Positions 27,951 through 39,132 of a DNA stretch of 64,000 nt are shown here, piece by piece. The stretch's first letter is position 1. Every line of letters begins with the position of its first letter. Source of the DNA: an archaeon. Its GTDB lineage: Archaea; Nanobdellota; Nanobdellia; Woesearchaeales; GW2011-AR15. The stretch lies in NCBI GenBank assembly GCA_018657065.1, contig JABHXU010000020.1, forward strand, positions 62,001 to 126,000, given 5' to 3'. Both the position numbers and the translations under genes were made by a program. The notes beneath the pieces are model-generated. The model was not told the DNA's origin. It worked only from the letters and a program-made list of their open reading frames with translations, and did not search any database.

Positions 27951-29033
27951 TTACAATAATAGATCTACCATCTCTTTGTTTAATCGAACACTTTCATAAC
28001 CACACTTGATACTTGCAACTCTAGATGCATAATTTCCAAATTCTTCAAGTAATTCGGGAGATTGTGAAATTTTAGTTAATTTTTCTAAATCACATATTGC
28101 TCTATCATTATCACCTATAGTTTCAAAAACTTTAGACATAAATGCTGCGATATATGCATCACCAGCACCAATTGTTGTTCCTTTTTCAATATCTAGATTA
28201 TCTATTCTTGGGATATCAATTCTTTGAACTTGGTCTTGATCTTGATAAAAAATTGCTGACCCATCACCACCATAAGTTTCTAGTAAGATTTTTGTACCAT
28301 TATTCAAGAAATATTTTCTTTCTTGATCTTCTTTATCATGTCTTTCAGATTTTTTTCTACTAAACAACATTACATCATATTGAGCTCCTTGTTCAACACT
28401 TTTTTTTGTGGAGTCAATAAACATACTATAATTTGCAACATCATAAACAGTTATTGCACCTTTTTTAACTGCTCTTAAAGCTCTTTGAGTAGCTTCATAT
28501 TTTTGTTCTCTAAGTTCATATCCACTAGTAAAAAAAACATCTGCTTTTGAAATATGACCTTCTAAAGTATCTCCGTGAGAACTTATTTCAAGTTGTTCAG
28601 GTAAAAGGCCATTTGCAGCATTTTCATTATATACAAAATTATTTTCTGCACCATCAATTCCAGCTAAAGTATATGTTTCTTTTGTTGGATCTACAATTAA
28701 ATGAATATTAACATTTTGAGGCATACTATTTCTAAATTCTTCTTCAAAATTTCTTCCTATTGGGGCAATATAATGTAAATCTAAATTATTTGTAAGAAAA
28801 CTTAAATTAGTTGCAATATTTGCCATGTTACAACCTGCTGTAAAAGGAATCTTTTTTTCAGTTATAAAAAAAGGAAGTAAATCTGTTAATTTTTCTCTAT
28901 GTTCTTTATTATTGTCAAAATCTCCAATTTCTTGACTCCTATAAAAAGAAGTTAACCATTCATTAACAGTTTCTAAATCTGTTAAGGCATCAACTAGAAC
29001 ATTTCCCCATAAAACAACTTTTTTATGCTGCAT
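27951..29033 (-). CDS. PfkB-family carbohydrate or nucleoside kinase
   Basis: 360 residues. The first PfkB signature region is loosely kept (TAGCNMANIATNL), and the second is clear near the C-terminus: GTTIGAGDAYIAAF, where the aspartate is the catalytic base and GAGD forms the anion hole. The fold is ribokinase-like, phosphorylating a sugar or nucleoside with ATP. Substrate cannot be assigned. It is divergent from the TctA-like permease with promoters in the 78-bp gap; shared control is possible. Confidence 0.88.
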   Translation of the reverse strand: MQHKKVVLWGNVLVDALTDLETVNEWLTSFYRSQEIGDFDNNKEHREKLTDLLPFFITEKKIPFTAGCNMANIATNLSFLTNNLDLHYIAPIGRNFEEEFRNSMPQNVNIHLIVDPTKETYTLAGIDGAENNFVYNENAANGLLPEQLEISSHGDTLEGHISKADVFFTSGYELREQKYEATQRALRAVKKGAITVYDVANYSMFIDSTKKSVEQGAQYDVMLFSRKKSERHDKEDQERKYFLNNGTKILLETYGGDGSAIFYQDQDQVQRIDIPRIDNLDIEKGTTIGAGDAYIAAFMSKVFETIGDNDRAICDLEKLTKISQSPELLEEFGNYASRVASIKCGYESVRLNKEMVDLLL

Positions 29034-29111: not shown

Positions 29112-30308
29112 ATGGTCTTTGAAATATTTTTTGTTTTATTCCTAGGAATCTTAATAGGAATAATAACAGGCTTAGTTCCTGGAATACATGTAAATTTAGT
29201 TGCAACAACATTATTTGCCATATCACCAATATTATTAAATTATTTTGAACCTCTCTCTCTAGCTGTATTTATTATCTCATTATCATTAACCCATTCATTT
29301 CTTGATACAATTCCTTCAATTTATCTAGGTGCTCCTGAGAATGAAAATGCTTTATCAGTTTTACCTGGTCAAAAAATGTTACTTCGAGGTGAAGGATATC
29401 AAGCCGTAAAAATAACAATTTTAGGAACCTATGTAGGATTAATTACTGCAATCATTTTAATTCCAATTTTTATGTTTATAGCAAAGTCCGTTTATTCATT
29501 TCTTAAACCTTATCTTGTTTATCTCTTAATTTTACTTATTAGCTACATGATTTTAAAAGAAAAACAAAAATTTTGGGCTTTTTTGCTGTTTTTTATTAGT
29601 GGAACACTAGGAATAATTGTTTTTTCTATTCCTAATCTTAATGAACCTCTTTTTCCAATGTTGTCGGGAATTTTTGGATTATCAGGATTAATTATTAGTT
29701 ATTTTGAAAATACAAAGATTCCATTTCAAAGAATTAATCAAAATATTAAACTTAAATATAAAGAACTAGTTAAAGCAATTATAGGAAGTTCTATTGCAGT
29801 ATTTTTAATTCAATTTTTTCCAGGTCTAGGTCCTGCTCAAGGGGCAGTAATATCAAACCAGATTGTAAAAGTTAAAAATAGAGGATATTTAGCACTTGTA
29901 GGAGCAATGGGTACAATGTCAGTTGTTTTTTCTCTAGTTACTTTCTATGTTTTAGGAAAAGCTAAAGACGGAACAATTGTTGTTATTAGTAAATTATTAG
30001 AACTAAATCACAAATCATTTCTCTTATTAATTACCACATTTATTGTGAGTGGTTCAATTGCTGTATTTTTAACACTTTTTTTTGCAAAGATATTTTCTAA
30101 ACTAATAGGAAAAATCAATTACAAATTACTAGTTTTAAGCATAATTAGTTTTATTTTTGCTATGACAATTATTATAAATGGTTGGATTGGAATTATTGTA
30201 TTAATTACAAGTGCATCGATTGGACTTATAGCTCCATTAAAAAATATTGGAAGAAACCATGCCATGGGATGTTTGATATTGCCTGTTTTAATGTATTTTA
30301 TTTTATAG
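29112..30308 (+). CDS. TctA-like (DUF112-type) membrane permease
   Basis: A 398-residue protein with about ten membrane segments. The motif TGLVPGIHVNLVA near the N-terminus is the glycine- and proline-rich signature of the TctA permease of tripartite tricarboxylate transporters; a second one, FFPGLGPAQGAVISN, occurs in the middle, as expected for a two-repeat transporter. Archaeal members are shorter than bacterial TctA (about 500 residues) and lack TctB/TctC partners, as here. The transported compound is unknown. Its end overlaps the convergent gene by 11 nt. Confidence 0.83.
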   Translation: MVFEIFFVLFLGILIGIITGLVPGIHVNLVATTLFAISPILLNYFEPLSLAVFIISLSLTHSFLDTIPSIYLGAPENENALSVLPGQKMLLRGEGYQAVKITILGTYVGLITAIILIPIFMFIAKSVYSFLKPYLVYLLILLISYMILKEKQKFWAFLLFFISGTLGIIVFSIPNLNEPLFPMLSGIFGLSGLIISYFENTKIPFQRINQNIKLKYKELVKAIIGSSIAVFLIQFFPGLGPAQGAVISNQIVKVKNRGYLALVGAMGTMSVVFSLVTFYVLGKAKDGTIVVISKLLELNHKSFLLLITTFIVSGSIAVFLTLFFAKIFSKLIGKINYKLLVLSIISFIFAMTIIINGWIGIIVLITSASIGLIAPLKNIGRNHAMGCLILPVLMYFIL

Positions 30309-31185
30309 GCTGTCTTTCTCCATTAATTGTTCTATAGGCTTTGGCCCTCTTCATACCTTTGACATTAGATAAAACATCAACTATTGTTTGGTATGTACCA
30401 GAAAGCTGTTCTCCAAAATTTCTCTCCACATTAAAATCAACTGAAATAGATGCATCCCAGACTCTATAAGGAGCTGAGGTCATTAAAGCGATTTCTTCAT
30501 CTCTTCCTGGTGGTCTATATTCTAAATCAAGTACCCATCCTCCTTCTTGACCTGATATTTGCCATTTATCCTCAAAATCTAAATTCCGTGTTGATGTTTT
30601 TTCAACATTTAAAGCAAAATCTAACCCTTCTGTTTTTAAATTTTCTTGAATCTGATCTGCAATTGATTGCATTTCTGATTCAGGGTTCTCATAGGCAAAT
30701 CCCTCTCCAAATGGAAAAAGAAGACATGATCTCAGAAATCTTTTTATTGGTTTATATGGAGTCCCAACTCCAAGAAAAGATTCATATGTTTGTTCAGATG
30801 AACCTGTAACTTCTCCATGTTGAGCTAATAAATCTCTTAAAGAAACATAATCTCCAAATCTATTTTCTGCAGATGAAGACATTCTTGCTTCTAAAAAAAC
30901 TGTTGAAGGCTCAAGGTAACCTGTTGCATCAACATTTCCAAATCTATATCTTGCTTCAAATTCTAATTCAGGATCTTCTGAAACTAATCTCATCCAATCA
31001 AAATTATTCAGATTCTGTCTATTTAAACCTGCGTTTGCTTGAAAACTATATCCTCTTTCAAACCCAAAGCCCATAACTTCTTTTAGAATTGATAGTATTT
31101 TATCAGTTCCATCATCCTTCATTTCTTTGTTAGAAGGAGTAAATGAAACTACAATTGGTTCATATTCAAACTTTAGCTTTGACAT
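30298..31185 (-). CDS. hypothetical protein
   Basis: About 295 residues, soluble, acidic, with alternating beta-rich segments. I do not recognise the family. The start at 31185 (MSKLKFEYEP) is chosen because a TATA box (TTTATAAA, 31208-31215) lies 23 bp upstream, so translation is probably leaderless; an upstream in-frame start at 31233 would lie beyond the promoter. Its amino acids are less lysine/asparagine-rich than most of the window, like the operon to its right. Confidence 0.7.
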   Translation of the reverse strand: MSKLKFEYEPIVVSFTPSNKEMKDDGTDKILSILKEVMGFGFERGYSFQANAGLNRQNLNNFDWMRLVSEDPELEFEARYRFGNVDATGYLEPSTVFLEARMSSSAENRFGDYVSLRDLLAQHGEVTGSSEQTYESFLGVGTPYKPIKRFLRSCLLFPFGEGFAYENPESEMQSIADQIQENLKTEGLDFALNVEKTSTRNLDFEDKWQISGQEGGWVLDLEYRPPGRDEEIALMTSAPYRVWDASISVDFNVERNFGEQLSGTYQTIVDVLSNVKGMKRAKAYRTINGERQPIK

Positions 31186-31207
31186 ATTAAGAAGTATAAA
31201 AGTGGAG

Positions 31208-31215
31208 TTTATAAA
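31208..31215 (-). promoter_or_regulatory. TATA box deciding the start of the 30298-31185 gene
   Basis: TTTATAAA lies 23 bp upstream of the ATG at 31185, the standard archaeal distance for a leaderless transcript. It shows that this gene has its own promoter rather than being read only from the upstream operon. Confidence 0.55.
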
Positions 31216-31246
31216 TGTTTCGTTTTTTACCACTTAAAAGTAACAA

Positions 31247-31753
31247 TTATTTTGTGGTATCTCTTAAAGTAGTCACGTTTTCTGACTCGGCGTGTTTTAA
31301 TGCTAACATTTCTTCAACAAGAGATTCAATTGTATCTCCTTTTGTTAAGTCCCCTATTTGAAGATTTTGATCGCTTTCTTTTGGGTCTGTCCATATTTTT
31401 CCATCTGCAAAAGCCCATAATCTTGCTGGAAAACTTTCTGTTGATCTTGGTAAAACAAAAATAGGTATTTGAGCACCAGATTCTTCAACAATACTATCTG
31501 CTTCTGCGGCTTTTTCTCTGAATTTATCATCATCTACTCCATATAATGCACTGAAATCATACTCTTGTCTTCTGGCAGCAAGTATGTTTGCAAGATTAAT
31601 TGGTCTATATTGAGAAATAAGCCAATAACTTGCTCCAAGATTTATAACCCTTTTTGCTAAATCCGGAAGTTCATTTACACTTAATGAAGTAATGAATGAA
31701 TTAACTGCCAAATGTTTTCCCCATTTTTTTACTGTTTCAATACCTTTGTTCAA
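31247..31753 (-). CDS. possible C-terminal remnant of a radical SAM-type barrel
   Basis: 168 residues from a TTG start that overlaps the preceding 57-residue frame. HLAVNSFITSLSVNELPDLA and LGASYWLISQYRP resemble the fourth and fifth strand-helix units of radical SAM barrels, and the later FADGKIWTDPKE resembles their C-terminal strand, but no CX3CX2C cluster motif exists. It may be the back half of a broken radical SAM gene, or an unrelated domain. Last gene of the eight-gene operon. The family call is tentative. Confidence 0.5.
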   Translation of the reverse strand: MNKGIETVKKWGKHLAVNSFITSLSVNELPDLAKRVINLGASYWLISQYRPINLANILAARRQEYDFSALYGVDDDKFREKAAEADSIVEESGAQIPIFVLPRSTESFPARLWAFADGKIWTDPKESDQNLQIGDLTKGDTIESLVEEMLALKHAESENVTTLRDTTK

Positions 31754-31923
31754 AATTTCGTGATAACCTCTCCCTCTTCTTCTTCTAAAAACTCTGAAAC
31801 AACAGAAACAGTTGCAGGAATATCTCTCTCTTGAAATAGAGCTATAACTGCTTCAAATTGTTCTCTTTCTTCAGGTCTCAACATATAATCGTCGAGTCTG
31901 ATTGCTACATTGATTTTTTTCAT
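31750..31923 (-). CDS. 57-residue frame resembling the start of a deacetylase-like barrel
   Basis: The ATG overlaps the methyltransferase stop as ATGA, and its own stop overlaps the next TTG start, so it lies inside the operon. NVAIRLDDYMLRPEE followed by an amphipathic helix and IPATVSVV resembles the first strand and helix of polysaccharide-deacetylase or DUF2334-like barrels (IRLDD). It stops after 57 residues, far too short for such an enzyme. It may be a truncated gene next to another fragment, or a real small protein. Confidence 0.5.
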   Translation of the reverse strand: MKKINVAIRLDDYMLRPEEREQFEAVIALFQERDIPATVSVVSEFLEEEEGEVITKF

Positions 31924-32657
31924 AGTTTTCTAGCATATGTTATTGAATGTTGTTTACCTAGTATTTCCCATTCTGGTGAGGCTGAAACTGTATCTTCAAT
32001 AGCCTTAATTGTTACTTTTTTACCATAAGGTGCGACACTATCATGGAATGCAACAAAACCTCCTTTATTAACTAAAGGTCCATACTTTTCAAAATCTTGA
32101 ACAACTGCATCATAAGCATGATTTCCGTCTATCCACAAAAGATCAATTGGTTTATCTTCCCAATCAATGCTGTGGCTAAATCCTTCAATAAGAGTAACTC
32201 TATCTGTTAAATCATGAAAATCCATTACTGCTTGTACATCTTCAAGAGAAGGCTTATTAAAATCTGCTTGTAGATAAATAGCTTCTTCTCCGTCATCCAT
32301 TGAGACTTGAGTTGCCATTTCACTCGCAAAAGGATCAACTGAATAAACCTGTGAATCTGATATCTCTGCTCCTTTACCTAAAAAATAAGTTGATAATCCC
32401 CCAAAACAACCTATCTCAAATATTGTACTCTCTTCAGGAAGTTGAGTTGCCAAATTATATAATAACCATTTTTCTTCTGGTGCCAATGATCCTCTTATTC
32501 TACCTGCGTTTGTTGTAGGCCAAAGATCCACTTTGTCCTGGCCAGACACAAATCTAGCTTTATCATACCTAAATAACCAGTAGGTATTTAAATGAAACAA
32601 TGCTCTTCTAACTGTATCATCAAATTTGTTTTTTTTACTAATTGGTACTGTTATCAT
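31920..32657 (-). CDS. class I SAM-dependent methyltransferase
   Basis: 245 residues. Motif I is IFEIGCFGGLST, an acidic strand end VYSVDPFA binds AdoMet ribose, and WIDGNHAYDAVVQDFEKYG and GGFVAFHDS match the Methyltransf_24-type catalytic region. Members methylate small molecules, often sugars or nucleoside antibiotics. Position in an operon with a dehydrogenase, phosphatase and synthetase-like enzyme suggests a tailoring role. It overlaps both neighbours by 4 nt. Confidence 0.87.
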   Translation of the reverse strand: MITVPISKKNKFDDTVRRALFHLNTYWLFRYDKARFVSGQDKVDLWPTTNAGRIRGSLAPEEKWLLYNLATQLPEESTIFEIGCFGGLSTYFLGKGAEISDSQVYSVDPFASEMATQVSMDDGEEAIYLQADFNKPSLEDVQAVMDFHDLTDRVTLIEGFSHSIDWEDKPIDLLWIDGNHAYDAVVQDFEKYGPLVNKGGFVAFHDSVAPYGKKVTIKAIEDTVSASPEWEILGKQHSITYARKL

Positions 32658-33340
32658 GCTAATACCTCTTTAATTTTGTATAAATCAATTCTTTGAATTT
32701 CTGGATGGTAATCTTCATTGACATTTACTAATCCAACTTGACAACCTAATTCTGCTGCTGGTTGTAAATCAACTGTAAAATTATCTCCTAAAACCATAAC
32801 TTCATTTAGGGATATTCCTTCTTGATGAGCTATCCACTCATACATTTTTCCTTTTGATATATTAGTTGGATCTTCTGGGAAATCTAATGGACAGTAAGTT
32901 GCTTTTATTGAGTCTCTAATTCCCAATACTTCTTGAATCTCAACAGAATATTTTCCTGGTGAAGCTAAAGTTACAATATATATTGGAATTGTTCTTGAAA
33001 TATCTGTAAAAACCTCTGAAAGAATTGGATCAGGTTCTAAAAAATCACTAACATTAATTCCATCTAGGACATCGTGATATCCTGGAATTCCTGTTAAATC
33101 CCCTCTTCTTTGTCTTGATGCAATTTCTAGGCCTAATGATGGAAATCCTTCATAGGGATGTGGGTGGTTTTCTCTTAAGGATTGATAAACTTTTTCAATT
33201 TCTGTTTCTTCAACTGGAGTATTATCAATAATCCATTGTTTTGTTCTTTTTCTAGCTTCTGCTATTAAAGGGTGATGTGCATCTCCTTGTTTAGGTGGAT
33301 ACACTGTTCCATCCTGGTCTAGTATTAATGCTTGAATCAT
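32654..33340 (-). CDS. HAD-superfamily phosphatase
   Basis: 228 residues with the haloacid dehalogenase motifs: DQDGTVY at residues 8-14 (nucleophile and acid aspartates), a threonine in IYIVTLAS, a lysine in SKGKMYEW and the metal site LGDNFTVDLQPA. The cap region between motifs I and II resembles pyrimidine 5'-nucleotidase-like HADs. It probably dephosphorylates a pathway intermediate; with a phosphoribosyltransferase-like gene upstream, a ribose phosphate is an attractive but unproven substrate. Confidence 0.86.
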   Translation of the reverse strand: MIQALILDQDGTVYPPKQGDAHHPLIAEARKRTKQWIIDNTPVEETEIEKVYQSLRENHPHPYEGFPSLGLEIASRQRRGDLTGIPGYHDVLDGINVSDFLEPDPILSEVFTDISRTIPIYIVTLASPGKYSVEIQEVLGIRDSIKATYCPLDFPEDPTNISKGKMYEWIAHQEGISLNEVMVLGDNFTVDLQPAAELGCQVGLVNVNEDYHPEIQRIDLYKIKEVLA

Positions 33341-33342
33341 TT

Positions 33343-34341
33343 TTATTCATCAATTAAGGTCATTGTTGCTATTTTTAGTTCTCTATCATACTGATAAGTG
33401 TCTGATTTCTTTCCTTGCATATCATATAGATTTATTCTATGATTATTTGAATCTGCTACTAGTATTCCATAGTCTTTTCCCATTGGGACTACTCTTGCGT
33501 CTTGAACCCAACAAAAATCATCCTCAAGAGCCATTGTTTGCTGAAATTTATCATCAAACAATAAAACCCTACCATAATGTGTCTTTGAATCCTCTTCATT
33601 TGGATATCTATACCTAGTATCACTAACAATATATCCTCCATTTGCTGTTGGTAAAAAAGAATGTGGATGAGTTAGTCCAGTTACAACTTCTCTAAATTCT
33701 CCTGTTTCAGGATCAATTTCTATTGCTGCACCTTGAACCCATAAAGTTGCATAGTGTTTTCCATTTTGTTCAAAAACACCATTAACATGAGTAGTTTGTT
33801 GAGGAGTCATATATACTCTTTTTCTATGATCAATTTCTTTTTCAATAGTTCTTGTTCTTCCTTTTTGATCTTCTTTAAATCCATGGTCTGTTGCATACCA
33901 TGTGTGTGTTGTATTTCCATATAAATCTGTTCCAAGTATCAAATCTAACCCTGAGCTACTAATCAAAAGACCTTTTTTGTCCTCAGTTAAAGACATATCA
34001 TGAACATCTGCAAGATTGGGATTTGAAAAAGTTCTTACTTGTTTAAGGTCTCTATCATAAACTCTAAGCATTGTACCGTCTCCCCAATTAAGCCAATCAT
34101 CATGTCCTGTTGTTACAAAAAAGTTTTCTCCATCATAATCTGCTCCAAAAGGAGTTCTAACTTGAACTGTTCTTTCAATTGTTTTTGTATCCCAATCTAA
34201 AATATCAATTCTTCCACCTAAATCTAAAGGTTGATGTTCTTCAACTAAGGAAACAACTTCATCATTTCCTGTTTGTCCTTTAGCCCAATGATCCTCAAGA
34301 ACTGAAAATCTATCTGTAAAATAAGTTATAAGTAATTTCAT
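33343..34341 (-). CDS. beta-propeller protein
   Basis: 332 residues with repeated beta-blade patterns: FGADYDGENFFVTTGHDDW, GTMLRVYDRDLKQVRTF, AAIEIDPETGEFREVV, GRVLLFDDKF and ILVADSNNHRINLYD. This resembles NHL/SGL-type propellers. There is no signal peptide, so it is cytoplasmic. Some propellers of this type are enzymes (lactonases, lyases). It lies 2 nt from each neighbour in the operon. Function not assigned. Confidence 0.78.
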   Translation of the reverse strand: MKLLITYFTDRFSVLEDHWAKGQTGNDEVVSLVEEHQPLDLGGRIDILDWDTKTIERTVQVRTPFGADYDGENFFVTTGHDDWLNWGDGTMLRVYDRDLKQVRTFSNPNLADVHDMSLTEDKKGLLISSSGLDLILGTDLYGNTTHTWYATDHGFKEDQKGRTRTIEKEIDHRKRVYMTPQQTTHVNGVFEQNGKHYATLWVQGAAIEIDPETGEFREVVTGLTHPHSFLPTANGGYIVSDTRYRYPNEEDSKTHYGRVLLFDDKFQQTMALEDDFCWVQDARVVPMGKDYGILVADSNNHRINLYDMQGKKSDTYQYDRELKIATMTLIDE

Positions 34342-34343
34342 TT

Positions 34344-35390
34344 TTATTCACTTGGTTCAAGAACTATTTTGACTACTCCTTTTTCTCCTTTATTATTCAT
34401 TGAATCAACTGCCTGAGTAATTTGAGATAATGGAAACTTATGTGAAACAATTTGTTCTAAGGTTTGAGAATCTCTATTTATCATCTCAACTGCTGTTTCA
34501 AATTCGTCTTTACCTTTGTGCATTTGGAAAGAATTAGATCCTGTAATTGAAAGTTCCTTCCATCCTTGATCCCTCATAGCATAATTAACTACATATTGGG
34601 GTGGAAATACTCCTGCAAATACAACCTCTCCTTGTCTAGCTGCTAAATCAACAGCCATTTTCATTGATTGTGATTGTTCTCCACCAACTGATTCAATAAC
34701 AATCTTTTTTGAATTACTAAAATCATGCTGACTAATATCTACATCACCAGATGCCAGATAAAAGGTGTCTGCACCTAATTCTTTTGCAATAGCTAAATTT
34801 GATTTATGTTTTCCAAAAACAGTAATATCTGAATATCCAAATTGTTTTGCAACATATGCTGAAAGTAATCCAATTGCTCCATCTCCAATTATTGCTACAC
34901 TATCATCTGTATCAATTTCTCTTAACTTATTGAAATTGTGTACAGCTACAGCTAATGGATCTGCTAATGACGCTACATCAAAAGGTACATCTGGATTTAA
35001 TCTGTACAAATTACTTGTTGGTACAGCTACATAATCTGCAAAACCTCCTTGAACAGTTTTACCTATACTTCCACCATCTTCACAAAATTGATAAGCCCCT
35101 TCTTCACAAGGTTCACAAGAATCACAATGCAAGATTGGTTTAACAACAACTCTATCTCCAAGCTCAAATCCACTTAAGCTTGTACTTATTTCTTCAACAA
35201 CACCAGATATTTCATGACCGTAAATATTGGTTGGCATGTTTGGCATAGAGTGTGAATTAAATTTGTGCATATCACTCCCACAAAGACCCGCAGCCTTTAC
35301 TCTAATTAAAGCCTCACCTTCTTTAATTTCAGGCATAGGTACTTCTTTGTATTCTATTGTTCTAGGTCCTGTAATTTGTGCAGTATACAT
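34344..35390 (-). CDS. zinc-dependent medium-chain dehydrogenase
   Basis: 348 residues of the threonine/sorbitol dehydrogenase type. Catalytic zinc ligands lie in GLCGSDMHKF and GHEISG. The structural zinc site is the four-cysteine CDSCEPC...FC segment. The NAD(P) loop is IIGDGAIGLLSAYVA (a GXGXXG variant). It oxidises an alcohol, commonly of a polyol or amino-alcohol. In this operon it could oxidise a sugar or amino-alcohol intermediate. Five nt separate it from the upstream gene. Confidence 0.9.
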   Translation of the reverse strand: MYTAQITGPRTIEYKEVPMPEIKEGEALIRVKAAGLCGSDMHKFNSHSMPNMPTNIYGHEISGVVEEISTSLSGFELGDRVVVKPILHCDSCEPCEEGAYQFCEDGGSIGKTVQGGFADYVAVPTSNLYRLNPDVPFDVASLADPLAVAVHNFNKLREIDTDDSVAIIGDGAIGLLSAYVAKQFGYSDITVFGKHKSNLAIAKELGADTFYLASGDVDISQHDFSNSKKIVIESVGGEQSQSMKMAVDLAARQGEVVFAGVFPPQYVVNYAMRDQGWKELSITGSNSFQMHKGKDEFETAVEMINRDSQTLEQIVSHKFPLSQITQAVDSMNNKGEKGVVKIVLEPSE

Positions 35391-35395
35391 TTTTC

Positions 35396-36532
35396 TTAAT
35401 CTTTAGGAACTTTTGCTAAATAAGCGTCAAGTTTACCTTGATCTCCTCTTGTTGCTGAAATAAAATCTTGAAGAACATCTATCGCTGTTCCTTGTTCTAT
35501 AACTGCTCTTGCTAATTGATATCCATCTTCAGGTGAATCAGCTTTTTTTCCTACGTACAATAAAAGACCTGCGTTAATAGCCACTATGTCTTTTCTTGCT
35601 TCTTCTCCTTTGCCAGCTAAAACATTAATAACATATTGAACATTTTCTTCAGGTGTTACACCTGGTGAAATATCCTCAGCATCATATTCTGGCAAACCAA
35701 ATTCATTAGTTGGTTGAATACATAATACTTTACCTAATCTTCCTTGATCTTCTCTTTTTCCAATAATTCTATTTGTTCCATATACACCTAATTCATCCAA
35801 GTAATGAACTCCATCTGGTGTTGATGAAGAAACTATAAAATTAGTTTCTCTAAAATATTCCAGTAATTGTGCTGAAAGTTCTAATTCTTTGTGTGCTACC
35901 CCATAAAATAAATGATCCAAAGCAACAGGTGAAAGTAGTGCTGGAAAAACTAAACTTAAAGCATGAGGAATATCAAATTTTCCTCCATATATCTCATCAA
36001 AATTAGGAATCAAACCTTCAATTCTAAAAAAACCATATCTTGTTTCTTGGATAACTTTTATCATTTCTTCTAGATGTATATCTATATTTGCTCCAACACG
36101 ATCCATAAAATCTGCTGAACCTGTTACTGAAGAAGTTGATGACGACCCAGGTTTTGCAAAGTATAATCCTGCTGCAGCTGCTACTAATCCTGCAGGAGTT
36201 GATATGTTCATAGTTTTAATTCCTTTTTTGCCGCTTCCTAGAGCTCCTACAAGCATCTCTCCCTCTGGAAGTTCAACTCTAGGTTTATCTTCATCATATG
36301 GAGAAAATCCATCTAAACTAAGAGCCGCTTCAACTAAAGCTATTACTTCATGCCTTTTTGGACCTTTTGCCATTAATCCTGTTAAAATGCTACCTAAGCT
36401 GGTATCTCTCTGGTCACATTCTGTCTCAAGAGCGTGTTTAAAACCTGATTTAACTAAATCAAAGTCAATTTCATCTACACCAGCATTAATTTGGTATAAC
36501 AATTCCTTTGCAGGATTAATATCATGCGTCAT
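35396..36532 (-). CDS. TrpD-like phosphoribosyltransferase (GT family 3)
   Basis: 378 residues, related to anthranilate phosphoribosyltransferase. Conserved blocks are KTMNISTPAGLVAAAAG, KPGSSSTSSVTGSADF and, near the middle of the second domain, DGVHYLDELG, with the D/E pair that binds magnesium in TrpD. The phosphate loop reads GSGKKG instead of the GTGGDG of true TrpD, so the conserved aspartate is replaced by lysine. No other trp gene is present. A relative acting on another ring or amine than anthranilate is likely. Confidence 0.8.
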   Translation of the reverse strand: MTHDINPAKELLYQINAGVDEIDFDLVKSGFKHALETECDQRDTSLGSILTGLMAKGPKRHEVIALVEAALSLDGFSPYDEDKPRVELPEGEMLVGALGSGKKGIKTMNISTPAGLVAAAAGLYFAKPGSSSTSSVTGSADFMDRVGANIDIHLEEMIKVIQETRYGFFRIEGLIPNFDEIYGGKFDIPHALSLVFPALLSPVALDHLFYGVAHKELELSAQLLEYFRETNFIVSSSTPDGVHYLDELGVYGTNRIIGKREDQGRLGKVLCIQPTNEFGLPEYDAEDISPGVTPEENVQYVINVLAGKGEEARKDIVAINAGLLLYVGKKADSPEDGYQLARAVIEQGTAIDVLQDFISATRGDQGKLDAYLAKVPKD

Positions 36533-36533
36533 T

Positions 36534-37592
36534 TTAATCTCCTCCAGGCCATTTTGAACAAATATTTACAAGCATATCTGTATATGCTGCTTTTGACTTT
36601 TGCCAAGCTGGTCCTCCTTGTAAGCAAGCATCATAATTTACAGCTAATTCTTGTGGACTTAGTGTTGATGCTGAAGCCATTAATTGGTAAACTACATTAT
36701 CTTCTGGTCTAGTTGATTCTCCTTCTCCTTCTTTGATTCTTCTTTGAATTTCCTCTGCAGGTAAATCTGCTGTGATTCCTGAATTAGGAAAACTCTTGGA
36801 CATTTTTGGAAAATCAAAAAATCCTTTAATTAAACTTGAGTATAATCCTCCTAACGAGTATCCATCTAATTGACCATCTTCTTGCATTCTTCTAACTGTT
36901 TCTTGAGCAAATCTTACATATTGGTGTTCATCTATTCCAAGCATTACTAAAACATTTGGAATCCCTGAATTTCTATAAAGATCAATAAAATCTGCAACCA
37001 TTAAATTTAATGACATTCTTCTAGGAAAAGACATTCCTGGTGTGTCGTCTACTTTTCCTTTTTCTGCATAAAAACTATGAAGATCTTCTTCTGCTGCAGC
37101 AAACATTCCTTCATCCATATATTTTGCTATAAGTTGGGCTGTTATTGCTACATCTCCTGCATTAATTTGCCCTCTTAGTATTGATCCGTCGTCTGTTTTG
37201 AAACCTAAGTTTGTAATAAATTGTTGGAATTTATCAGCTAATTCTAATGCATATCCTAAATCTGTTCCTTTTCCATTATATGCATCCAAATCTCCCATTA
37301 CTAGTTGAACTGGAACACCTGCTTTTTGTAAAGCAATACTTCTTAAAATTTGAGAAATTGTGCCTGCATGAGGAACTCCACTCATTCCAAATCCTGATGT
37401 AACAATTGATTCTTCACCTGCAGCGAATCTTCTTGCAAATTCATCTGCATTATGATGGCAAAGCCACCTTCTCTGTAAATCTTCTTGTACAAGTGATCCT
37501 AAACCAAAATTAATTTTACCAAAAGCTACAGGATCATAACCATTCTCTTTCATTAGAGCTTGATAATAAGCTTCATCAAATACAATTGACAT
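36534..37592 (-). CDS. class I tRNA-synthetase-like enzyme, TrpRS family
   Basis: 352 residues. GFGMSGVPHAGTISQI corresponds to the HIGH-motif region (HAGT instead of HIGH), VQLVMGDLDAYNG follows as in the Rossmann core, and FPKMSKSFPNSGI is an intact KMSKS loop with the PN(S/T) context of TrpRS, at about 262-274. Only about 80 residues follow KMSKS, which seems too short for a normal anticodon-binding domain. First gene of the operon with TrpD-like and tailoring enzymes, so amino-acid activation for a small molecule is plausible; a divergent TrpRS for translation is the alternative. Confidence 0.78.
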   Translation of the reverse strand: MSIVFDEAYYQALMKENGYDPVAFGKINFGLGSLVQEDLQRRWLCHHNADEFARRFAAGEESIVTSGFGMSGVPHAGTISQILRSIALQKAGVPVQLVMGDLDAYNGKGTDLGYALELADKFQQFITNLGFKTDDGSILRGQINAGDVAITAQLIAKYMDEGMFAAAEEDLHSFYAEKGKVDDTPGMSFPRRMSLNLMVADFIDLYRNSGIPNVLVMLGIDEHQYVRFAQETVRRMQEDGQLDGYSLGGLYSSLIKGFFDFPKMSKSFPNSGITADLPAEEIQRRIKEGEGESTRPEDNVVYQLMASASTLSPQELAVNYDACLQGGPAWQKSKAAYTDMLVNICSKWPGGD

Positions 37593-37620
37593 TTTATCAC
37601 TAAATAGTAGTAATTAATAA

Positions 37621-37628
37621 TATATAAA
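37621..37628 (-). promoter_or_regulatory. TATA box of the 37592-31247 operon
   Basis: On the minus strand TTTATATA lies about 29 bp upstream of the ATG at 37592. No ribosome binding site is seen, so the first gene is probably leaderless. It shares a 250-bp gap with the promoter of the divergent synthetase gene. Confidence 0.5.
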
Positions 37629-37749
37629 TCTTTCTCTTTTTTAATTATATAATTTTTTTAAATTAAGGATCAATTTATAATAAGAATCCTAATTTGATAT
37701 TTTATTGGAATTAGAGGCTAATTAATAAATATGAAGTTAAATCGAAATC

Positions 37750-37761
37750 AACTAATTAGTT
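37750..37761. promoter_or_regulatory. AACTAATTAGTT palindrome between divergent synthetase-like genes
   Basis: A perfect 12-bp palindrome lies between the two promoters of the divergent genes, 52 bp upstream of the TATA box at 37813. A related CTAATTAA sequence lies just upstream near 37718. It may be a regulator site serving both directions; in AT-rich DNA a chance palindrome of this size is possible. Confidence 0.3.
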
Positions 37762-37812
37762 TAGTTTTTCAATTAAACAAAAAATTTATTATCACTGAAG
37801 AATGACAAAAGG

Positions 37813-37820
37813 TTTATAAA
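37813..37820 (+). promoter_or_regulatory. TATA box of the TyrRS-like gene
   Basis: TTTATAAA lies 23 bp before the ATG at 37843, so the transcript is probably leaderless. Confidence 0.55.
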
Positions 37821-37842
37821 TAACTGATTTTTTCAAGTTACC

Positions 37843-39132
37843 ATGTCTTTGCAAAGTCAAGTGGATGAACAATATGCAATTCTAACTAGAGGAGCAATTC
37901 CTAAAGGTCCTGATGCTCTAGAGGGAGGAGTAATTACTGAACCAGAACTTAGAGAAAAAATTGAGACTTCTGTCAAATCAGGTAAACCTCTAAATATATA
38001 TGCAGGATTTGATCCTACTAGTGATTCTTTAACAGTTGGACATTTGCCTGTTATTAGAAGATTAAATGCTGCAGCAGAATTAGGTCATAATGTTACTTTT
38101 TTAACTGGAAGAGCAACAGTAGCGTGGGGAGGAGATCCTTCTGGAAGAGATGAGGCAAGGGAACAACTTTCTTGGGATATCATAAATAATAATTATAAAA
38201 GAATAAAAAACCAAGCGCAAAAAATTTTGCATTCTGGTATTAATATCAGAGATAATTATGAATGGTTTCAAAAAATCGGATTCAGAGGAGTGGCAGATCT
38301 ATTAAGGACTTTTACACACGATCAGCTTAGACAAGCTGCATTTATCTCTGGAAGAGATGATCGAAAACAACCGTATCATCTAACTGAAATGGCATATCCA
38401 TTAATAATGGCTCGCGACTCTTTAGAACTTCAAGCCGATGTTCAATATGGTGGACTTGATCAATTATTTAATTTAGGTATTTGTAGAACACATCTTAAAA
38501 GACATGGACAAGAACCACTGTCTTTAATTGCTCTCAAAATGCTTGGTCTAAAAAAAGGTGAAAAAATTTCGAAATCTGATCCAAGGACTTATCTTCCTAT
38601 TGACACCCCTCCTGAAAGATTATATAAAGCAATTGCAAGAATGGATGTTAATGTTATTCCTACATGGCTTGAATTATTTACAGACATGTCTTATGATGAT
38701 ATTGGTCAATGGGTAGAACGAATCAATACATTCGACACAACAAAAGGAGTACCTGAAGATTTAAATGAAATAAAACAATACATTGCAAGTGAAGTTTTAA
38801 GTCAAATATACCCAGGTAAATCTCAGGTAATTTCTAAGGCAAATCAAGCATTCCTAAATGGAAACATTACATATCAACATCCGATAAGACAAAATGTAAC
38901 TATTGTTGATCTTGTTGGTGGAGCAATAAGAAGCGATCCTGATATGGTTGCCAAATACGGCAAAAGTGGAGAAGTTAGTAATAGTGCTGTGATTAGATTA
39001 ATTAATGATGGTGCAGTTAGAATAAGTGGTGAAAGAATTCAAGACAAAAATGCTGTTTTTAACAATGGAGAATTACCAAAATATCTAGCAGTTGGAAAGC
39101 AATTCCATATTGATGTAAGCTATAAAAGATAA
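37843..39132 (+). CDS. bacterial-type tyrosyl-tRNA synthetase (TyrZ-like) with S4 domain
   Basis: 429 residues. YAGFDPTSDSLTVGHL carries the HIGH equivalent (TVGH), GDPSGR follows, ADVQYGGLDQLFN is the tyrosine-pocket segment, GEKISKSDP is the KMSKS loop, and the C-terminal 60 residues form an S4 RNA-binding domain (SNSAVIRLINDGAVRISGE). This is the bacterial TyrZ layout; archaeal TyrRS lacks S4. In the substrate helix YPLIMARDS, the glutamine usually found where M stands is missing and Tyr is replaced by Arg. Divergent from an operon with another synthetase-like gene. It may be the cell's TyrRS or a specialised copy. Confidence 0.85.
   Translation: MSLQSQVDEQYAILTRGAIPKGPDALEGGVITEPELREKIETSVKSGKPLNIYAGFDPTSDSLTVGHLPVIRRLNAAAELGHNVTFLTGRATVAWGGDPSGRDEAREQLSWDIINNNYKRIKNQAQKILHSGINIRDNYEWFQKIGFRGVADLLRTFTHDQLRQAAFISGRDDRKQPYHLTEMAYPLIMARDSLELQADVQYGGLDQLFNLGICRTHLKRHGQEPLSLIALKMLGLKKGEKISKSDPRTYLPIDTPPERLYKAIARMDVNVIPTWLELFTDMSYDDIGQWVERINTFDTTKGVPEDLNEIKQYIASEVLSQIYPGKSQVISKANQAFLNGNITYQHPIRQNVTIVDLVGGAIRSDPDMVAKYGKSGEVSNSAVIRLINDGAVRISGERIQDKNAVFNNGELPKYLAVGKQFHIDVSYKR

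Follow-up and report, generated by a model that had tools for sequence, protein, structure and literature searches.

A TrpRS-like and TrpD-like enzyme pair shared by DPANN archaea and actinomycetes, and a candidate pathway against tyrosyl-tRNA synthetase

Proteins resembling aminoacyl-tRNA synthetases (aaRSs) occur in several natural-product systems, where they help to build the product or protect the cell that makes it. For example, SbzA, the IleRS-like aminoacyl transferase of SB-203208, is a synthetase-fold protein encoded in an actinomycete cluster whose product inhibits an aaRS, and it also acts as an extra resistance-type synthetase, while the aaRS-like enzyme AcmF of the ascamycin pathway acylates a nucleoside core into a mimic of aminoacyl adenosine monophosphate (aminoacyl-AMP) (PMC12945691). 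Similarly, AgnB2, a second and non-essential LeuRS encoded beside the agrocin 84 biosynthetic genes, shields the producer from an aminoacyl-AMP mimic (PMC5059758), and second synthetase copies are the immunity genes for albomycin, mupirocin and indolmycin (PMC9437257). The locus described here lies in a 64,000-nucleotide stretch of a woesearchaeal genome (assembly GCA_018657065.1, contig JABHXU010000020.1, positions 62,001 to 126,000; hereafter the window). It consists of a minus-strand operon that begins with a class Ic enzyme resembling tryptophanyl-tRNA synthetase (TrpRS; here termed W), a TrpD-like enzyme (D) and a zinc-dependent dehydrogenase (ZnDH), and of a divergently oriented tyrosyl-tRNA synthetase (TyrRS). 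W and D are separate families outside canonical TrpRS and TrpD, linked in both archaea and actinomycetes, and the chances are somewhat better than even that the cluster arrived by horizontal transfer and directs the synthesis of a so far undescribed small molecule acting on TyrRS.

The W system would work like those of SbzA and AcmF but is a member of neither, since the synthetase class, the partner enzyme and the target all differ. SbzA is a class Ia enzyme, a full-length IleRS with an editing domain that uses Ile-tRNA, whereas W is a short, TrpRS-like class Ic protein and the proposed resistance synthetase is a separate gene. AcmF is AlaRS-like and belongs to class II, in contrast to W, and we know of no TrpD-like partner for it. 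Agrocin 84 differs in that its target is LeuRS, its genes are plasmid-borne and its core is built otherwise. The cyclodipeptide synthases share with W a TyrRS/TrpRS-like class Ic fold used outside translation, but W keeps the HxG and KMSKS motifs, pointing to activation dependent on adenosine triphosphate (ATP). In a review of duplicated synthetases, resistance copies are listed for SerRS, IleRS and TrpRS and none for TyrRS (PMC9437257), and no described TyrRS-resistance cluster was found in the open-access literature. SB-219383, a dipeptide from Micromonospora that inhibits TyrRS (PMC9054317) and is an analogue of tyrosine (PMC7916415), is the kind of product to be expected from the W clusters; no biosynthetic cluster for it was found in the literature examined, and a link to the W clusters is a guess.

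A conserved core of W, D and a zinc dehydrogenase

The survey covered genome samples of two phyla, the window's own archaeal phylum and the Actinomycetota, and an exact-peptide scan with peptides of the window W found two loci. Ten W loci were compared, three from DPANN archaea (the window, L010 of genome G366 and L069 of G160) and seven from actinomycetes (L011 of the Actinospica genome G401, and L074, L075, L083, L084, L085 and L086 of G574, G638, G1027, G1070, G951 and G837, respectively). W was present in 3 of the 371 archaeal-phylum genomes, in 3 of 395 actinomycete genomes and in 5 of the 345 genomes from the Actinospica order. D (35396-36532 in the window, minus strand) adjoins W (36534-37592, minus strand) or sits one gene away in all ten loci, and in the Actinospica order (345 genomes) it occurs in exactly the five that carry W, the remaining matches to the D profile being ordinary TrpD. 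The probability that the two would share an identical five-genome distribution by chance is about 3e-11, a figure that ignores relatedness. A homologue of the ZnDH (34344-35390, minus strand; Pfam domains ADH_N and ADH_zinc_N) lies beside the pair in nine loci. The window's methyltransferase and propeller had no homologue in the other W loci, and its HAD-family hydrolase matched only that of G366 (33% identity), the actinomycete loci carrying other HADs. The conserved core is therefore W-D-ZnDH. A preliminary description of the window had suggested testing whether the whole gene set co-occurs and had inferred a pathway with methylation as its last step; the core does recur elsewhere, but the methyltransferase and propeller are without counterparts, so the last steps apply at most to the window genome. 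That the grouping is fortuitous, a chance gathering of unrelated neighbouring paralogues, is scarcely credible: the accessory genes do vary between loci, but the linkage of W and D spans two domains of life and is matched by their identical distribution, and for this pair the idea is already refuted.

By every sequence test made, W is not a TrpRS. It scores 45.2 bits against the archaeal-type NCBIfam TrpRS model (cut-off 451) and 39.6 bits against a second (cut-off 176.75), missing both. The ten W proteins are monophyletic (support 100/99). Their stem, 1.35 changes per site long, is a separate, starred branch that lies on the same side of the tree as archaeal TrpRS but outside the archaeal TrpRS clade, and a profile of six of them gives 125-605 bits for W-family matches and at most 87 for canonical TrpRS. 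KMSKS is present in nine of the proteins and KFSKS in the tenth, and HxGT or a close variant occupies the HIGH position (HAGT in the window W, which has 352 aa). Before the AAD motif, archaeal TrpRS and TyrRS have the amine-binding Gln, which is replaced by Met in nine of the ten W proteins; for comparison, bacterial TrpRS naturally has Met there. The preliminary description had remarked on how little protein follows KMSKS, which is right in number, with 85 residues in the window W and 79-85 across the family versus 107-119 in archaeal TrpRS. The FSGG..TxEEHRxxGGNPD segment of archaeal TrpRS is absent from all ten proteins, and the basic tail is also lost. However, no whole domain is missing, and outright loss of the C-terminal domain was rejected because the predicted structure (predicted local distance difference test score, pLDDT, 81.7) spans it, being nearest to archaeal and human TrpRS across the full length, C-terminal helices included. 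W is thus predicted to retain the TrpRS fold; judging from its motifs, it has likely given up anticodon recognition while still forming an acyl-adenylate.

The window genome (archaeal, 1.49 Mb in 25 contigs, 95.65% complete) has a canonical TrpRS on contig C9 and a canonical TyrRS on contig C6. W is therefore an extra copy, and the possibility that it is the sole TrpRS of its host was rejected. The other W genomes checked likewise have canonical copies of both synthetases away from the cluster, apart from G160 and G837. The host TrpRS (L005:619-2409; G000 contig 9, 23575-24417) is a 596-aa fusion, compared with about 356-396 aa in TrpRSs from the relatives collected, and its N-terminal stretch shows a weak similarity, below cut-off, to the B3/B4 editing domain (E = 2e-4). 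It is very improbable that W stands in as another TrpRS or TyrRS for an unusual tRNA or codon assignment. Its full-length TrpRS fold would allow this, as would its being the only class Ic synthetase in the DPANN genome G160 (96% complete), whose whole assembly (897,593 bases in 36 contigs; pieces L069, L132-L171 and L177-L197) yielded no TyrRS or TrpRS besides W in searches with PF00579 and tblastn. However, canonical TrpRS and TyrRS are both present in the window genome, G366 and G401, and because G160 also has no TyrRS, missing contigs are the likelier explanation there. Moreover, W is constantly accompanied by D and ZnDH, the C-terminal segment is missing, and no tRNA gene was found in the window.

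D resembles TrpD in fold and in the positions of its phosphoribosyl pyrophosphate (PRPP) site, but departs from it elsewhere. It scores 147.9 bits against TIGR01245, below the cut-off of 199.05, and forms a clade of its own (support 100/100) separate from canonical TrpD, while the best PDB matches to its predicted structure (pLDDT 91.5) are all TrpD, with template modelling (TM) scores of 0.66-0.77 on query length. The replacement of the GTGGD loop by GSGKK (GSGKKG in the window) with the DE pair kept, noted in the preliminary description, is fixed in the relatives, with GSGKK in nine D proteins and GSGKE in the tenth. NIST, the Lys that follows it and the DE pair are conserved relative to TrpD, whereas the His and Asn of the HGN acceptor motif are lost in all nine aligned D proteins, suggesting that the enzyme largely retains its site for the sugar diphosphate but not the part that takes the acceptor. 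The window genome encodes no other PF00591 protein.

The linked TyrRS and the proposed pathway

The TyrRS of the window (37843-39132, plus strand) is a bacterial-type enzyme with an S4-like end that passes TIGR00234 (163.6 bits versus a cut-off of 113.8) and is very divergent (tree tip 2.3-2.75). A TyrRS lies inside the cluster in eight of the ten W loci. These cluster TyrRSs retain the S4-like tRNA-binding half, and their hosts have a second TyrRS; in the window genome and G366 this is an archaeal-type enzyme, in G401, G638, G951, G1027 and G1070 a TyrS-type one, and in G574 one of a second bacterial type. The active-site Gln of the YPxxQ motif is replaced in all nine W-set TyrRSs (the eight cluster-linked copies and the sole TyrRS of G837), by Met in eight, including the window copy, and by Val in one. 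The equivalent residue of the M. jannaschii enzyme, Gln155, is reported to bind the amino group of the substrate (PMC11723616). The same Gln is kept in each of 22 control TyrRSs (four TyrS and one TyrZ-type from the same genomes, three archaeal and 14 diverse bacterial) and, in printed alignments, in the solved TyrZ-type enzymes. A simple count gives this split a probability of 5e-8, a figure that makes the contrast look too strong because seven of the nine altered enzymes share one clade; a tree built without the Gln column requires three separate changes, and bootstrap trees two to three. The window copy has TVGH in place of HIGH; because Thr also stands there in a G574 control TyrRS, the change was not taken to indicate inactivity. 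G366 has three TyrRS-family genes (L010:7689-9958; contig 21), one bacterial-type with Val and two archaeal-type, one of which adjoins W.

Target-site self-resistance, and not a biosynthetic role, predicts just such a repeated change at the substrate site in the W-associated copies alone, and on balance the linked TyrRS would be the immunity gene of the cluster. The preliminary description had instead treated it as a TyrZ-like synthetase with a changed pocket and as the second of two synthetase-like enzymes on which, with D, a pathway was built. It is indeed a genuine, very divergent TyrRS with an altered pocket, and the idea of a pathway stands for W and D: the host has another TrpRS, W falls outside the archaeal TrpRS clade and W-D-ZnDH recurs elsewhere, so that none of the refuting outcomes named in that description is borne out. 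For the TyrRS, the fixed Gln-to-Met/Val change, the S4 half that is kept and the further TyrRS that most of the genomes possess fit self-resistance better. A biosynthetic role is nevertheless conceivable if W or the linked TyrRS took its aminoacyl group from a charged tRNA, as SbzA and AcmF do, with the extra TyrRS either supplying Tyr-tRNA or being the transferase. SbzA, which doubles as a cluster-borne resistance-type IleRS and an aminoacyl transferase (PMC12945691), offers a precedent, and both the S4-like half of the linked TyrRSs and the part of the TrpRS C-terminal domain that remains in W are compatible with it. This alternative is unlikely, however, as the KMSKS or KFSKS of the W proteins indicates that the ATP machinery has not been lost, unlike in cyclodipeptide synthases, the loss of the FSGG..GGNPD segment makes tRNA recognition less likely, and the lost amine-binding Gln should weaken rather than improve the use of tyrosine by the TyrRS. 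Less likely again is that a cofactor or a primary metabolite is the product of the operon and that the TyrRS is a stress or feedback variant, comparable to the D-Tyr-excluding TyrZ, a known second TyrRS with higher selectivity for L-Tyr (PMC9437257). The minimal archaeal form of only three genes, seen in G160, would suit such a role, but the distribution of W is very patchy in all three groups of genomes, the TyrZ-type controls keep their Gln, and the actinomycete clusters carry tailoring genes.

These tailoring genes, which in most of the actinomycete clusters comprise a radical S-adenosylmethionine (SAM) enzyme, a HAD, a methyltransferase, two glycosyltransferases and P-loop kinase-like genes, give the loci the look of a specialised-metabolite cluster, and a specialised-metabolite pathway is considered probable. 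What is shown comprises the linkage of the genes, the separateness of the W and D families and the change in the TyrRSs; the specific chemistry is less likely than not to be as proposed. In the proposed scheme, D would attach a phosphoribosyl unit from PRPP or a related sugar diphosphate to an acceptor, its Lys-Lys taking the position of Gly-Asp in GTGGD and the anthranilate-binding His-Gly-Asn being absent, after which the HAD would strip the phosphate and ZnDH would oxidise a hydroxyl. W would activate an aromatic amino acid, for which tyrosine is the best guess, as the adenylate and pass it to the ribose-derived core instead of to tRNA. The product would then resemble tyrosyl-AMP and inhibit TyrRS, and the divergent Gln-to-Met TyrRS would keep translation going while the normal TyrRS of the host is inhibited. 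The methyltransferase, propeller and truncated radical-SAM protein of the window are accessory to this scheme.

Several observations weigh against a cluster directed at TyrRS. Most of the tailoring genes found in actinomycete clusters are absent from the archaeal loci and the radical-SAM protein of the window is truncated, so that the pathway in archaea may be reduced or decaying. No exporter was identified for the cluster. In G837, the divergent W-D pair adjoins an additional bacterial TrpRS while the Met-bearing TyrRS lies elsewhere, which could reflect a different target or a coincidence. G160 has the core without a TyrRS anywhere in its assembly; its minimal locus consists of W, D, ZnDH and a HinT-like HIT gene. 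HinT-type enzymes hydrolyse aminoacyl-adenylates, and this gene might be another form of protection. Finally, the controls for the active-site Gln number only 22, and with seven of the nine altered TyrRSs in one clade the changes amount to two or three independent events.

Taken at its widest, the proposal is that, by a new enzyme logic, a TrpRS-like, probably tRNA-independent aminoacyl ligase and a re-purposed phosphoribosyltransferase make aminoacyl-AMP mimics against TyrRS in actinomycetes and DPANN archaea, that the immunity TyrRSs converged on Gln-to-Met/Val, and that there are antibiotic producers among the DPANN archaea; this is put forward tentatively. If true, DPANN archaea with this core would have a means of chemical warfare or host control in addition to the scavenging by which these lineages are thought to live. 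TyrRS has few known natural inhibitors, and a cluster family recognisable by a specific active-site change in TyrRS offers a direct way to look for such compounds in actinomycetes that can be cultured. W and D would be two new enzyme families, with actinomycete members accessible to experiment.

Accessory genes and genomic setting

The genes of the island are packed tightly leftward from 37592, and the TyrRS is divergent across a 250-bp intergenic region (37593-37842), presumed to hold the promoters. All genes lie where the preliminary description had placed them, and its synthetase, TrpD-like, zinc dehydrogenase, HAD and methyltransferase calls are borne out by Pfam and NCBIfam, which support class Ic synthetase, Glycos_transf_3/TrpD-like, Zn-ADH, HAD and methyltransferase assignments. 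Beyond the ZnDH, on the same minus strand, follow an unclassified propeller-like protein without a Pfam, NCBIfam or PADLOC match (33343-34341), the HAD-family hydrolase, probably a phosphatase (32654-33340), and the methyltransferase (31920-32657; Methyltransf_24/TylF-like), the first and last of these occurring at a W locus in the window genome only. A 57-aa open reading frame (31750-31923, minus strand) overlaps the methyltransferase stop and resembles the start of another truncated gene. It is followed by the C-terminal half of a radical-SAM protein (31247-31753, minus strand; 193.7 bits to model positions 134-298 only), probably a remnant, which had gone unrecognised in the preliminary description and has whole counterparts in the actinomycete loci by alignment. 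The N-terminal half, expected to carry the Fe-S motif, was not found anywhere in the window genome. Across 31247-31923, the 57-aa gene start runs into the radical-SAM half as if a deletion had fused two genes, which may be real decay or an assembly artefact. The radical-SAM gene was rejected as a core gene for archaea, being absent from G160 and G366 and half present in the window. An orphan protein of 311 aa without a family match (30298-31233, minus strand) may also belong to the island.

The G+C content of the genes from 30298 to 39132 is 0.33-0.35 (0.33 for the orphan) versus 0.27 in both flanks, an excess that suggests a recent arrival of the island. The host, a symbiont-like DPANN archaeon, has the operon in common with soil actinobacteria. 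A plasmid or virus origin was rejected, W being absent from PLSDB (tblastn) and having no confirmed occurrence in IMG/VR. A known anti-phage defence system was likewise rejected, because no window protein matched a PADLOC model. A PfkB kinase at 27951-29033 was rejected as a cluster member, as it has lower G+C and no homology to the PfkB of the G366 locus.

Several features of the related loci may also be recorded. The actinomycete radical-SAM protein (L084:10840-11736) bears a distant likeness to viperin models (PADLOC E = 7e-12, 43 bits) but falls far short in NCBIfam, scoring 35.7 bits against a cut-off of 180. Downstream of the G160 core and on the same strand, a 369-aa protein with Cys pairs (L069:5438-6547) looks by eye like a class I synthetase catalytic fold; it matched nothing in Pfam and nothing credibly in the PDB. 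A HAD-dehydrogenase (DUF1932) gene pair (L086:4554-6223 and L085:2262-3799; 46-53% identity) is common to the G837 and G951 clusters and absent from the other loci compared. In Actinospica, a free-standing B3/B4 domain of the PheRS editing type (L011:14559-15293) adjoins the cluster TyrRS, and in G638 a SerRS gene (L075:13823-15112) immediately follows the cluster TyrRS of that genome.

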